A DNA stretch of 64,000 nucleotides from Salinivirga cyanobacteriivorans. GTDB taxonomy: Bacteria > Bacteroidota > Bacteroidia > Bacteroidales > Salinivirgaceae. The translations under genes and the position numbers were made by a program. The stretch lies in the NCBI RefSeq assembly GCF_001443605.1, contig NZ_CP013118.1, positions 3,931,001 to 3,995,000 on the forward strand, in the 5' to 3' direction. Positions within the stretch are counted from its first letter, which is position 1. Every line of letters starts with the position of its first letter. Below the pieces are notes generated by a model, which saw only the letters and a list, made by a program, of their open reading frames with translations, did no database searches and was not told where the DNA came from. This document shows positions 60,273 through 64,000 of this stretch, in pieces.

Positions 60273-61913
60273 ATGAAAAATTTAATAACAATTTTAATTA
60301 TTTTGATATCTGTAAGTTGTAATTCTTTAAAAGAAAAAGTAGATCTGATCGTAAAAAACGCAACTATTTATACGGTTGATTCTGGTTTCTCTAAGGCCAC
60401 TGCAATGGTAGTAACCAATGGTGAAATTGTGGCAGTCGGAGATGAAACACTTTTATCAGAGTACGAAGCAAAAAAAGAATTGAACCTTAAAGGAAAATAT
60501 GTGTATCCGGGATTAATTGATGCACATTGCCATTTTTATGGGTATAGCATGAATTTAAGGCAAATCGATTTACGCGGTACACAGTCATTTGATGCTATTC
60601 TTGAAAAATTGCAATTATGGAATGAAACTCACCGGGCAACCTGGATTTTGGGCCGTGGCTGGGATCAAAACGACTGGTCGGTGAAGAAATTTCCTACCAA
60701 TGAGGTGCTAAATAAACTGTTCCCTGAAAAACCTGTCTTTTTGCGCCGTGTGGACGGGCATGCTGCCATTGTCAATGATAAAGCACTTGCAATTGCAGGA
60801 ATTGATGCCAATACAAAAGTAGATGGCGGTGAAATTATAACCGAAAACGGCAAGCCCACTGGTATACTCATCGATAACGCACTTGAACTGGTGAGTCAGC
60901 ATATCGATGCACCACAATTAAGCGAAAAGGTAAAATATATCAATCAGGGTGCTCAAAATTGCTATGCCGCTGGATTAACTACTGTGGCAGATGCCGGATT
61001 GTTTTATGACGATATCAATTTGATTGACTCGATGCAGCGCGCCAACGAGTTGAAAATGCAGGTGTATGCCATGCTTTCTCCAACAGAGAAGAATTTTAAG
61101 CAATTCATGGAACATGGGGTTTACAGAACCAAACGCATGCATGTGCATTCAGTTAAACTATATGCCGATGGTGCGCTGGGTTCACGAGGAGCCTGTATGA
61201 TTGAGCCATATAGCGATGATCCGGATAATTACGGGCTTATTATAACCAATCCTGAAAAAATGGAACATATTGCACGTCGTGCATTTAATCATGATTACCA
61301 GGTGAACACACATGCCATTGGCGATTCGGCTAATCGGTTGATACTGGACTTATATGGAAAGATATTGTCTGAAAAGAATGATCGCCGATGGCGCATTGAA
61401 CATGCTCAGGTGGTCAATCCTGAAGACATTCATATGTTTGGGAAGTATGATATTATACCAGCAGTGAATACAACACATGCTACTTCAGATATGTACTGGG
61501 CTGGTGAAAGACTGGGTAAAGAGAGACTGAAGCACGCCTATGCTTACAAAGATTTATTGCAGCAAAATGGTTGGCTGTGTAATGGCAGTGATTTTCCTGT
61601 CGAGCATATTGATCCGTTATACGGTTTTTATGCAGCAGTGGCCAGGCAAGACTTTGAGGGTTTTCCACCCGATGGTTTTCAGATGGAAAACTCATTAAAC
61701 AGGGTAGAAGCACTTAAAGCCATGACAATTTGGGCTGCTAAAAGTATTTTTGAAGAAGACCGTAAAGGTTCACTTGAGCCAGGTAAACAAGCAGATTTTG
61801 TTGTACTTGATGAAGATATTATGAATATTGATTTTGAGCGTATTCCAAAAGTAAAAAACCTTGCTACATTTATTCAGGGAGAGAATGTTTTTAACGCAGA
61901 TAAGGTCAAATAA
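60273..61913 (+). CDS. Amidohydrolase, YtcJ-like, lipoprotein
   Basis: A 546-residue protein. N-terminal lipobox SVSC at ~15-18, then the amidohydrolase fold with VYPGLIDAHCHFYGY (His-x-His metal site), a second set near VNTHAIGDSANR, IEHAQVV with a conserved His, and GSDFPVE with the catalytic Asp. It belongs to the long YtcJ branch, whose substrates are mostly unknown (imidazolonepropionase- or N-acyl-amine-like). It acts outside the inner membrane, anchored by lipid. Confidence 0.9.
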   Translation: MKNLITILIILISVSCNSLKEKVDLIVKNATIYTVDSGFSKATAMVVTNGEIVAVGDETLLSEYEAKKELNLKGKYVYPGLIDAHCHFYGYSMNLRQIDLRGTQSFDAILEKLQLWNETHRATWILGRGWDQNDWSVKKFPTNEVLNKLFPEKPVFLRRVDGHAAIVNDKALAIAGIDANTKVDGGEIITENGKPTGILIDNALELVSQHIDAPQLSEKVKYINQGAQNCYAAGLTTVADAGLFYDDINLIDSMQRANELKMQVYAMLSPTEKNFKQFMEHGVYRTKRMHVHSVKLYADGALGSRGACMIEPYSDDPDNYGLIITNPEKMEHIARRAFNHDYQVNTHAIGDSANRLILDLYGKILSEKNDRRWRIEHAQVVNPEDIHMFGKYDIIPAVNTTHATSDMYWAGERLGKERLKHAYAYKDLLQQNGWLCNGSDFPVEHIDPLYGFYAAVARQDFEGFPPDGFQMENSLNRVEALKAMTIWAAKSIFEEDRKGSLEPGKQADFVVLDEDIMNIDFERIPKVKNLATFIQGENVFNADKVK

Positions 61914-61969
61914 TATAATTTATCTGTCAACTTGTTAATAAGGGTTTAACATTGTTGTTTCGTGGCAAT

Positions 61970-62073
61970 AAAAAAGGGTGGTCAGTAGACCACCCCCAAA
62001 AACAAGTCATGAAAACAGCTTATATTACCCCTCGCAATTGATCATCGGAAGTAGAACCTCCCGATAATGTTGC
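61970..62073 (-). ncRNA. Tandem small-RNA-like unit 1
   Basis: On the minus strand: after a strong promoter (62077-62107) comes GCAACAT, a stem-loop at 62044-62065 (ATCGG...CCGAT, 8 bp), a 48-base core (61997-62044) identical to unit 2, and a terminator hairpin (61976-61983 / 61988-61995, GGGTGGTC / GACCACCC) followed by six T. Expected length ~104 nt. The stem differs in sequence from that of unit 2 but keeps its pairing, a covariation that argues for a functional RNA. No protein is expected. Confidence 0.7.
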
Positions 62074-62076
62074 ATT

Positions 62077-62107
62077 CAAAAATAAGCAAACTAAATACCA
62101 AAACAAA
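62077..62107 (-). promoter_or_regulatory. Bacteroidota-type promoter of RNA unit 1
   Basis: On the minus strand TTTG (62107-62104), 19-base spacer, TATTTTTG (62084-62077). Exact fit to TTTG-N19-TAnnTTTG. Transcription is predicted near 62070-62073. Confidence 0.7.
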
Positions 62108-62148
62108 ATAAATCTGCATTTTTTAATGATTTTTTACCTTTTGACATG

Positions 62149-62246
62149 AAAAAAGGGTGGTCTGATAGACCACCCCAAAAACAAGTCATGAAAACAGCTT
62201 ATATTACCCCTCGCAATTGATCACTAAAGGATTTAGTGATGTTGCA
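62149..62246 (-). ncRNA. Tandem small-RNA-like unit 2
   Basis: Copy of unit 1, 179 bases away: GCAACAT, a 9-bp stem at 62220-62240 (ATCACTAAA / TTTAGTGAT, loop TCC), the identical 48-base core (62176-62223), and a terminator hairpin (62155-62163 / 62167-62175, GGGTGGTCT / AGACCACCC) followed by T-run. A -33 TTTG is present but the -7 element is weak, so this copy may be expressed less or under other conditions. Confidence 0.65.
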
Positions 62247-62311
62247 CTTTTAAGGAAACAAATCCTGTACCAAAAAAATATTTTGCGAGTTAAATTTGAC
62301 TTTTTTTGAAA

Positions 62312-62336
62312 AAATGGGTGCACTTTGCACCCATTT
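62312..62336 (-). terminator. Intrinsic terminator of the DUF4397 gene
   Basis: On the minus strand the stem AAATGGGTGCA / TGCACCCATTT (62312-62322 and 62326-62336), loop AAG, followed by a T-rich run. It ends the DUF4397 transcript before RNA unit 2, so that the RNA units are independent. Confidence 0.85.
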
Positions 62337-62358
62337 AAAATAACGTTTAATATGTAGA

Positions 62359-64000
62359 TTATTGTTTGATTATTCTTTCAACACCTACGTTGTTGTTGCT
62401 CTGAACTCTTACGAAGTATGTGCCCTCAGTAAGGTCGCTGATGTTTAAACTCAGCTTGTCGGCATTTGCTGCGCGCTGAATTACGATTTGACCCTGTGCA
62501 TTAAATATCTCAACCTTTTCAATGCTACTGTCTGAAGCAATATTCAAACGGTCACTGGTTGGGTTTGGATACACATTCAGGCTAATCGAGCTTTGTGGAT
62601 TGTCAAAAATACCAACTGCGCTTAATGCTACAAGCTGTCCGCCTGATGGCAATGCTACATACAATCCAAAAGCTTCACCATCGCTGTTGTTTGCAGGGTT
62701 CAGGAAACCTGAAGCCAGTACAGTTATAGCAGCATCGTCTAAACCTAAAGTAGCAAGTGGAGCTTCGTAAGCTGCAACAGTTGAAGTACCAGTTTCGTCG
62801 CGTACTTCTAATACATAGTCATCTGTGGCTAACTCAGCATATCCAAAGAAGTCACCATAAGCAAGGTTATCAATAAGTTCACCGTTTACAACAGCGGTTT
62901 CATAAATGTCCACTACAGGAGCGTCGGTACTACCGTGGAATACAAGTACGTCAGTATTTCCTGAAGTAGCAGCCATATCACGAGCCATAGGGAATACATA
63001 TAAATCAAAAGCTTCAGCAGGATCGTAACCTGAAGCACTTACAATACCGTTAGCAACGATAATATATTTCTCGTCAGCTGTCAGCGTGTAATTGAAAGCC
63101 GCGATTGTATCATCAACACTTGCTGATGTTGAAGGCGCAATACCCACAACGATTTCTTCTTCAGCAGGTACCGAAAGGAATGATGTAGCTTCCCGGAACA
63201 TAAAGTCATCTTTAATAAGGTCACCGTTCAGGTACACATCTACCATTTCAGCAGCAGCATCCGCAGAGTTGTGAATAATTTGTACCTGAGCTTCTGCGGG
63301 TTCAGTTACAAGTGGCAATTCAACTAACATTCCACCTGAAGCCAGAGCAGCATACAATCCAAAAGCTTCACCATCGCTGTTGTTTGCAGGGTTCAGGAAA
63401 CCTGAAGCCAGTACAGTTATAGCAGCATCGTCTAAACCTAAAGTAGCAAGTGGAGCTTCGTAAGCTGCAACAGTTGAAGTACCAGTTTCGTCGCGTACTT
63501 CTAATACATAGTCATCTGTGGCTAACTCAGCATATCCAAAGAAGTCACCATAAGCAAGGTTATCAATAAGTTCACCGTTTACAACAGCGGTTTCATAAAT
63601 ATCCACTACAGGAGCGTCGGTACTACCGTGGAATACAAGTACGTCAGTATTTCCTGAAGTAGCAGCCATATCACGAGCCATAGGGAATACATATAAATCA
63701 AAAGCTTCAGCAGGATCGTAACCTGAAGCACTTACAATACCGTTAGCAACGATAATATATTTCTCGTCAGCTGTCAGCGTGTAATTGAAAGCCGCGATTG
63801 TATCATCAACACTTGCTGATGTTGAAGGCGCAATACCCACAACGATTTCTTCTTCAGCAGGTACCGAAAGGAATGATGTAGCTTCCCGGAACATAAAGTC
63901 ATCTTTAATAAGGTCACCGTTCAGGTACACATCTACCATTTCAGCAGCAGCATCCGCAGAGTTGTGAATAATTTGTACCTGAGCTTCTGCGGGTTCAGTT
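62359..64000 (-). CDS. DUF4397 repeat protein with T9SS sorting domain (partial, 5' end outside)
   Basis: At least 547 residues visible; the frame is open past the window edge. The protein is built from ~231-residue DUF4397 modules (VQIIHNSADAA, VVDIYETAVVNGE, FLNPANNSDGEAFGLY) that are almost identical. The C-terminus is a type A sorting domain (SLNVYPNPTSDRLNIA ... VERIIKQ). It is thus exported by the type IX system. The DUF4397 function is not established; the beta-sandwich repeats suggest a surface layer or adhesion role. It is followed by its own terminator. Confidence 0.9.
   Translation of the reverse strand, partial: TEPAEAQVQIIHNSADAAAEMVDVYLNGDLIKDDFMFREATSFLSVPAEEEIVVGIAPSTSASVDDTIAAFNYTLTADEKYIIVANGIVSASGYDPAEAFDLYVFPMARDMAATSGNTDVLVFHGSTDAPVVDIYETAVVNGELIDNLAYGDFFGYAELATDDYVLEVRDETGTSTVAAYEAPLATLGLDDAAITVLASGFLNPANNSDGEAFGLYAALASGGMLVELPLVTEPAEAQVQIIHNSADAAAEMVDVYLNGDLIKDDFMFREATSFLSVPAEEEIVVGIAPSTSASVDDTIAAFNYTLTADEKYIIVANGIVSASGYDPAEAFDLYVFPMARDMAATSGNTDVLVFHGSTDAPVVDIYETAVVNGELIDNLAYGDFFGYAELATDDYVLEVRDETGTSTVAAYEAPLATLGLDDAAITVLASGFLNPANNSDGEAFGLYVALPSGGQLVALSAVGIFDNPQSSISLNVYPNPTSDRLNIASDSSIEKVEIFNAQGQIVIQRAANADKLSLNISDLTEGTYFVRVQSNNNVGVERIIKQ
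62657..63307 (-). repeat. 693-bp near-identical coding repeat, downstream copy
   Basis: Matches 63350-64000 with a period of 693 bp (231 codons). By eye I see only one substitution (62908 G against 63601 A). The repeat sits inside the DUF4397 gene. Confidence 0.85.
63350..64000 (-). repeat. 693-bp near-identical coding repeat, upstream copy (truncated by window)
   Basis: Partner of 62657-63307. More copies may lie beyond the window edge. Confidence 0.85.

Follow-up and report, generated by a model that had tools for sequence, protein, structure and literature searches.

To our knowledge, few trans-acting sRNAs have been characterised in Bacteroidota, and a search of the open-access literature found no sigma-54-linked or sigma-54-driven sRNA in that phylum. 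Among the systems compared here, the Qrr sRNA of Vibrio exists in several copies that depend on sigma-54, have a conserved core and finish in an intrinsic terminator; they are Hfq-dependent and LuxO-controlled, and Hfq likewise has a role in the GlmY/GlmZ system. In the latter, an enterobacterial system, glmY is described as being transcribed by both the RpoN and the RpoD holoenzymes from one start site, and GlmY and GlmZ as homologous sisters (PMC6358824, PMC4987338) that act through RapZ on glmS (PMC6358824). The five-copy LhrC of Listeria is reported to bind mRNA without needing Hfq and to possess redundant CU-rich sites (PMC4132741). Within Bacteroidota, Rfp18 of Flavobacterium is described as a genus-conserved sRNA that affects the mRNA levels of its predicted pairing targets (PMC9723704). 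In Bacteroides, FopS is presented as a 14-member paralogous family transcribed from sigma-ABfr promoters at many loci, with members of ~65-70 nt that bear a conserved seed at their 5' end (PMC11697453). For both FopS and GibS, an extended conserved seed is reported to pair with start regions, and GibS to end in a Rho-independent terminator (PMC11697453, PMC7366714), in a host genus described as having no obvious Hfq (PMC7366714).

Against these systems we set a locus of Salinivirga cyanobacteriivorans, lying in a window by which we mean the whole 64,000-nucleotide stretch of DNA that was analysed and in whose numbering the coordinates below are given. As the first-pass annotation of this DNA had proposed, it holds two minus-strand units with a start-to-start spacing of 179 bases: U1, of ~105 nt (61970..62074; predicted start TGCAACA at 62074), and U2, of ~98 nt (62149..62246; predicted start TGCAACA at 62246). 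These score 124 and 106 bits, respectively, against a covariance model built from the two units themselves among others. Both contain GCAACAT and a variable 5' hairpin (62034..62073 in U1 and 62213..62245 in U2, minus strand, delimited by folding and by compensatory changes), whose stems differ in sequence and each pair, just as had been described. The layout is GCAA-C-(11 bp in U1, 9 bp in U2)-CAA-TTGC, and the closure of the hairpin by GCAA/TTGC is a feature absent from the first-pass annotation. The core, defined by 48 invariant columns in an alignment of six full copies, occupies 61994..62041 in U1 and 62173..62220 in U2 (minus strand); between these two units alone the identity runs uninterrupted over 51 nt. 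Each unit ends in an intrinsic terminator on the same strand, at 61974..61997 in U1, with the T-run continuing to 61970, and at 62154..62176 in U2, with the T-run continuing to 62149. Both had been called before, and they are the sole two that a terminator scan recovers in 801 bases (61700-62500), where 0.6 would be expected.

The folding energy lies below that of dinucleotide shuffles (z -5.4 for 61970-62073 and -3.0 for 62150-62250). Sub-ranges without the full terminator fold less strikingly (z -2.1 and -0.1), which indicates that the terminator carries much of the folding signal. Across the copies reported below, the units measure 98-106 nt and have the variable hairpin at their 5' end. 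The core is predicted to be partly open, its mean unpaired probability being 0.55-0.59 over the 36-nt central part in the six full copies (0.59 in U1), and RNAalifold adds to it a weak internal hairpin without covariation. A leader-peptide attenuator or riboswitch was considered and dropped, there being no same-strand gene ahead of the terminator.

The genome to which the window belongs (G000; one contig of 4,812,386 bases) holds two copies only, U1 and U2, at E <= 0.001, and relaxing the threshold to E <= 10 adds one 22-base match. When 149 genomes including G000 were searched by blastn, eight matched at E <= 0.01, the strong matches being G000 and two congeneric genomes, G001 and G002; the remaining five, in other genomes of the order, are short (E 0.003-0.007) and were taken for chance. 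Likewise, an exact 27-mer of the core, in a scan that may pass over the record of the window itself, recovered three contigs from the GTDB collection, all of them from Salinivirgaceae metagenome assemblies, namely G001 and G002. In G001, the end of contig C26 carries three copies, two of them full and one cut, and the start of contig C231 carries two, of which one is cut and the other full. Although this amounts to three full and two cut copies, we count at least four, because the two cut copies may be one and the same (36 nt are common to both contigs). The 36-nt contig-end stretch is also present in G001 copies b and d, so that the adjacency of the contigs and the exact copy number are unproven. 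In G002 one copy is seen, close to a contig end. The six full copies aligned are therefore U1, U2, three from G001 and one from G002. Copies with a common conserved core are thus multiple in both G000 (two) and G001 (at least four), and a comparison of copy number at the same locus across the genus, which had been called for at the outset, gives these counts beside the single copy seen in G002. Neither the higher number in G001 nor the confinement to the genus was visible in the window alone.

Beyond the genus the picture is different. When the covariance model was run against 393 genomes, a draw from a larger set for the order that presumably did not include G002, 46 genomes matched at E <= 0.5. 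High scores were confined to G000 and G001, with full copies at 106-131 bits and cut copies at 48 and 87 bits, and all others were at or below 30.7 bits. Twenty-eight of these weak loci were re-scored, ten of them were viewed as alignments and four in context, and none of these four is credible as a homologue: one (L024) reads as a stretch of tRNA gene, another (L023) as the end of a protein gene with a terminator, which a third (L022) resembles by eye, and the last (L028) as coding sequence. In the sister genus (G003-G005) no copy was found in the 1.5 kb beyond the amidohydrolase gene that flanks the locus (best score 11.3 bits), nor was a credible homologue found in the other genera searched. 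Rfam 15 has no family that either unit matches at the gathering score, the 64-kb window giving only a tRNA elsewhere; at a relaxed E-value there are 20 matches in 61900-62400, all under the gathering score. A mobile origin was rejected, since there is no match among 50,697 phage or 72,556 plasmid records and no viral contig contains an 18-mer taken from the core. The open-access literature, including work on Salinivirga (by title) and on Salinivirgaceae, yielded no description of this RNA. The earlier suggestion of a duplicated and possibly undescribed noncoding RNA family thus gains support from the homologues in two further genomes, both of which conserve the paired stem, and from the want of an Rfam match. 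On the evidence of the sequences, the sRNA family is very probably real and restricted to the genus; it would be a new family of a familiar kind, the multicopy sRNA.

The six full copies, from three genomes, are invariant over 48 consecutive core columns, although the neighbouring amidohydrolase of G000 has 63% identity to that of G001 and likewise to that of G002. In the inner 5' stem, seven of the nine pairs have substitutions in both partners, and three of the six copies break one pair of the nine. Counted over the full set of 21 pairs, paired cells make up 94.4%, as against 84.5% in shuffled alignments and 28.1-45.2% with the partner slid. The seven pairs changed on both sides compare with 4.3 in shuffles (9/500 of which reach seven), and the covariation score of 0.384 with 0.177 (sd 0.031), all of these statistics leaning upward because the copies are related and few in number and because the structure was hand-written on a MAFFT alignment. 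RNAalifold finds the 5' stem unaided on the same alignment, with six pairs changed on both sides. The compensatory changes first noticed between two units are hence borne out across six copies. The stem pairs change together and the core does not change; what is conserved is thus the shape of the former and the sequence of the latter. An invariant core yields no covariation, and thus the alignment leaves the mode of action of the core unconstrained.

As for the genomic setting, a gene for an amidohydrolase (Amidohydro_3; 60273..61913, plus strand; recognised by Pfam and synteny) is convergent with the sRNA copies in all three genomes, the copies lying beyond its 3' end. Upstream of the units and codirectional with them, a gene for a DUF4397 protein with a Por secretion tail (62359..63999, minus strand; Pfam) runs off the window. 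The neighbour on this side differs in G001, which has superoxide-dismutase-like ORFs (by eye), and the contig of G002 stops there. The first-pass annotation had given the DUF4397 gene a terminator of its own; a hairpin is indeed visible after the stop codon, at ~62308-62345, but it is not listed by the terminator scan, probably because its T-run is mostly consumed by the A-T base of the stem. Within this gene, two repeats (62624-62923 and 63317-63616), 693 bases apart, are 95% identical over 300 bases. In a comparison with integron cassettes, we observed that only ORFs of at most 81 aa lie between the copies, which end in terminators.

The units have, by sequence match, a promoter and an intrinsic terminator of their own, the promoter of U2 being weak. 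To elaborate, seven predicted starts were compared, including that of G001_c, a cut copy that retains its upstream part in full. The exact TTTG-N19-TATTTTTG housekeeping promoter claimed for U1 (62077..62107, minus strand) withstood a letter-by-letter check. Three of the seven copies (U1, G001_a and G002) match TTTG-N19/20-TAnnTTTG at 6/6 and 4/4 positions, this being the Bacteroidota housekeeping consensus; 16 offsets were scored per copy, and a full match occurs at 3.8e-5 per position over both strands of 464 kb of G000. For U2, the best housekeeping -7 match is just 4/6. Inside the housekeeping promoter of U1 lies a sigma-54-like element, TTGGTATTTAGTTTGCT (GG-N10-GC; 62085-62101, minus strand), the GC of which stands 11 nt from the predicted start; it matches 10 of the 13 scored positions of the sigma-54 consensus, at a background fraction of 2.2e-4. 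Promoters of the sigma-54 type are not mentioned in the first-pass annotation. U2 has a degenerate sigma-54-like element, TTGGTACAGGATTTGTT (GG-N10-GT; 62257..62273, minus strand), with the start spacing of U1 and also a 10/13 match, but GT replaces GC, a change that usually weakens sigma-54 promoters.

Copies G001_b, c and d share TTGGCACAAGCTTTGCT, which matches 12 of the 13 scored positions with the GC 11 nt from the start, the best of the eight spacings tried per copy; that score is reached at 0/927,286 background positions of the G000 sample. These copies are recent duplicates, and their three sites hence count as one observation. For G002 and G001_a no good sigma-54 site was found among the starts compared. 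Overall, GG-N10-GC stands ~11-12 nt before the start in four of the seven copies (b, c, d and U1), and not in U2, G002 or G001_a. Only in U1 do a sigma-54 match, of 10/13, and a housekeeping match overlap ahead of one predicted start. The strict pattern TGGCACN5TTGCW is missing from G000, found four times in G001 and once in G002, with 2, 2 and 0 occurrences, respectively, for its reversed controls, so that these totals are not above chance; what carries weight is that three of the four strict sites in G001 stand at equal distance before sRNA copies. A relaxed pattern occurs 16, 13 and 4 times as against 10, 4 and 1 for its controls. RpoN is encoded in G000 (428 bits). A palindrome, CGATATCG (G001, L017 2503 and 2870, L018 317), immediately precedes the -24 element in copies b, c and d; it occurs eight times in 464 kb of G000 and could be a regulator site. 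Elsewhere, on contig C239 of G002 (L050), a strict sigma-54 site, TTGGCACTCTCATTGCT (1501-1516), lies ~35 bases before an ORF that begins at 1551 and reads by eye like a Lon protease.

Turning to possible targets, Hfq (PF17209) was found in none of the three genomes (G000, G001 and G002), five of 14 control genomes being positive. The antisense of the core contains ATGAAAAC, which suggested pairing with start regions. As a general property this was not supported: compared with 40 dinucleotide-shuffled cores, the core pairs no better with the start regions of 321 ORFs of G000 (at least 100 aa, longest-ATG starts, from 400 kb of the genome plus the window), the mean energy being -11.91 versus -11.79 (sd 0.44) and the start regions at or below -14 kcal/mol numbering 72 versus 73.4. 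A 60-nt core query at E <= 10 gave 13 matches in the three genomes besides the sRNA copies, with complementarity E-values of 0.0099 (G002), 0.12, 0.22 and, for the rest, 0.78-2.7. The best candidate target is that in G002 (E=0.0099, per genome), which covers -26 to +2 of a 348-aa ORF coming after a Pvc16_N gene in an apparent contractile injection operon. The predicted duplex has 27 intermolecular pairs (25 Watson-Crick and two G-U), ordered as 15 uninterrupted Watson-Crick pairs followed by 12 that include the two G-U, with a predicted energy of -33.1 kcal/mol. Since duplex energies of this kind arise by chance when long flanks are allowed, it is the E-value and the position that carry weight. 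The operon itself (C319, L155/L156) has one ORF matching Pvc16_N and, by eye, sheath-like and tube-like ORFs. No homologue of the candidate target gene was found in G000 or G001; hence, it is not a shared ancestral target, and the site would at best be a species-specific one.

The other 12 complementarity matches are unconvincing as targets: in three (L072, L071 and L074) the target strand is sense and the next ORF begins 53, 115 and 125 nt further on, respectively, and nine fall within ORFs. A search with two 20-nt antisense patterns, three mismatches being allowed, gave, apart from the sRNA copies, five matches in G000 and one in G002 for the first and three in G000 for the second; the injection-operon site of G002 is the only one of these nine that falls at a start on the sense strand. 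Two identical 518-aa ORFs of G000, transposase-like by eye (G000:C1:2272354 and 4402617; L113 and L117), have a three-mismatch copy of the core antisense within their coding sequence.

We propose, with a probability of roughly 60%, that each unit is a gene for a ~100-nt trans-acting sRNA, the core of which pairs with a limited number of mRNAs and the synthesis of which has dual promoter inputs. In such a mechanism, the 5' hairpin would be free to vary in sequence provided that its pairing is kept, the invariant and partly open 48-nt core would perform the recognition, and the intrinsic terminator would end the RNA, the genus retaining one or more copies at a single locus. A housekeeping-type promoter would drive G001_a, G002 and U1, and a sigma-54 promoter G001_b, c and d, with an overlapping one in U1; the same core RNA might then be made both constitutively and in response to a signal that an enhancer-binding protein senses. 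The core would most likely base-pair with a few mRNAs near their start codons, and do so without Hfq. A more far-reaching version, which we advance only tentatively, is that tandem paralogues with an identical core have become split between the housekeeping sigma factor and sigma-54, with U1 as an intermediate carrying both promoters on one start, and that promoter switching rather than target drift drives their divergence, the injection-operon site having been gained in one species.

The bearing of the same observations on other explanations has to be considered. The RNA might bind a protein, as a sponge or a cofactor, rather than mRNA, with the core as the protein site and the copies raising the dose. 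We regard this as unlikely, even if the additional copies in G001, the failure to find Hfq in the three genomes and the absence of a start-region preference in the 321 ORFs would all sit well with it. The length of the core, too, could be read this way, as 48 invariant nucleotides exceed the 6-10 nt seeds described for Hfq-dependent proteobacterial sRNAs (PMC7366714); however, GibS and FopS are reported to pair with start regions by extended seeds (PMC7366714, PMC11697453), a long seed thus being nothing out of the ordinary for the phylum, and by eye the core has no repeated motif. A cis-antisense element of the convergent amidohydrolase transcript, in which readthrough overlaps the sRNAs and affects stability or termination, is decidedly improbable. 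It would account for the same convergent gene in 3/3 genomes, and no plus-strand terminator behind that gene appears in the scan of 61700-62500. Nevertheless, the gap between the RNA end and the amidohydrolase stop codon varies (56, 188 and 238 nt across the genomes), tandem copies with separate promoters and terminators are unneeded for a cis role, and the sister genus retains the gene with no copy found within the stretch beyond it.

Likewise, the small copy numbers, the local tandem duplication and the recent duplicates in G001 might prompt the view that there is no RNA gene here at all, just a repeated DNA element or a functionless relic. We hold this to be very improbable in view of the invariant columns and compensatory stems kept across species whose neighbouring genes are so diverged, the promoter and terminator matches at fixed spacing, the mere two copies in the own genome and the matchless phage and plasmid collections. 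Finally, the conservation could reflect a function on the plus strand, where 6/6 full copies have within the core a 10-residue frame, MKTAYITPRN and then a stop, that begins with ATGAAAA, the commonest start context in the G000 sample (32/321 ORFs). Yet there are zero synonymous changes between the genomes, the invariance extends past the frame, and the T-run terminators and promoter matches suit the minus strand, and we hold such a micro-ORF, too, to be very improbable.

If the preferred reading of a trans-acting sRNA is right, the part of most interest would be the divergence in promoter type between paralogues with an identical core. The family would form a natural series at one locus, namely housekeeping only, both, and sigma-54 only, in which the regulatory inputs of sRNA paralogues could be watched changing while the core stays fixed. 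A 48-nt invariant core operating without Hfq would, furthermore, offer a clean test of long-seed pairing versus protein binding.

Set beside the systems with which we began, the Salinivirga family resembles Qrr in its multiple sigma-54-type copies with a conserved core and differs in the Hfq dependence and LuxO control of the latter, the sequence relation being judged by the Rfam scan. With LhrC, as that sRNA is described, it has in common a multicopy organisation for which Hfq is not needed; the redundant CU-rich sites reported for LhrC set the two apart, and the only LhrC match of Rfam nearby, far under the gathering score, falls on the DUF4397 end, outside U1 and U2. Rfp18 is, as here, a Bacteroidota sRNA conserved within a genus; compared by description only, it differs in being presented without paralogues and as pairing via its third stem-loop, by prediction (PMC9723704). 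The FopS anatomy does not apply and no sequence relation to any compared sRNA was shown, for which reasons we file the family under none of them. The promoter arrangement of U1, with matches to the promoters of two sigma factors ahead of one predicted start, most resembles that of glmY, whereas GlmY/GlmZ belong to another phylum and act via RapZ and glmS. In its way of working, by an extended seed that pairs with start regions in the absence of Hfq, the family would come closest to FopS and GibS. These are likewise Bacteroidota sRNAs, from a host described as without evident Hfq, FopS being paralogous like the units here and GibS having a terminator. In contrast, FopS is described as having a 5' seed, a length of 65-70 nt and dispersed loci, whereas the present units have a variable 5' hairpin, an internal 48-nt core, a length of 98-106 nt and a tandem arrangement. 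Similarly, the FopS promoters are reported as canonical sigma-ABfr, whereas some copies here are of the sigma-54 type, FopS being set apart in these respects by description only. Our best reading of these comparisons is thus of a family that would be a member of neither FopS nor GlmY/GlmZ and may be likened to both in its logic.
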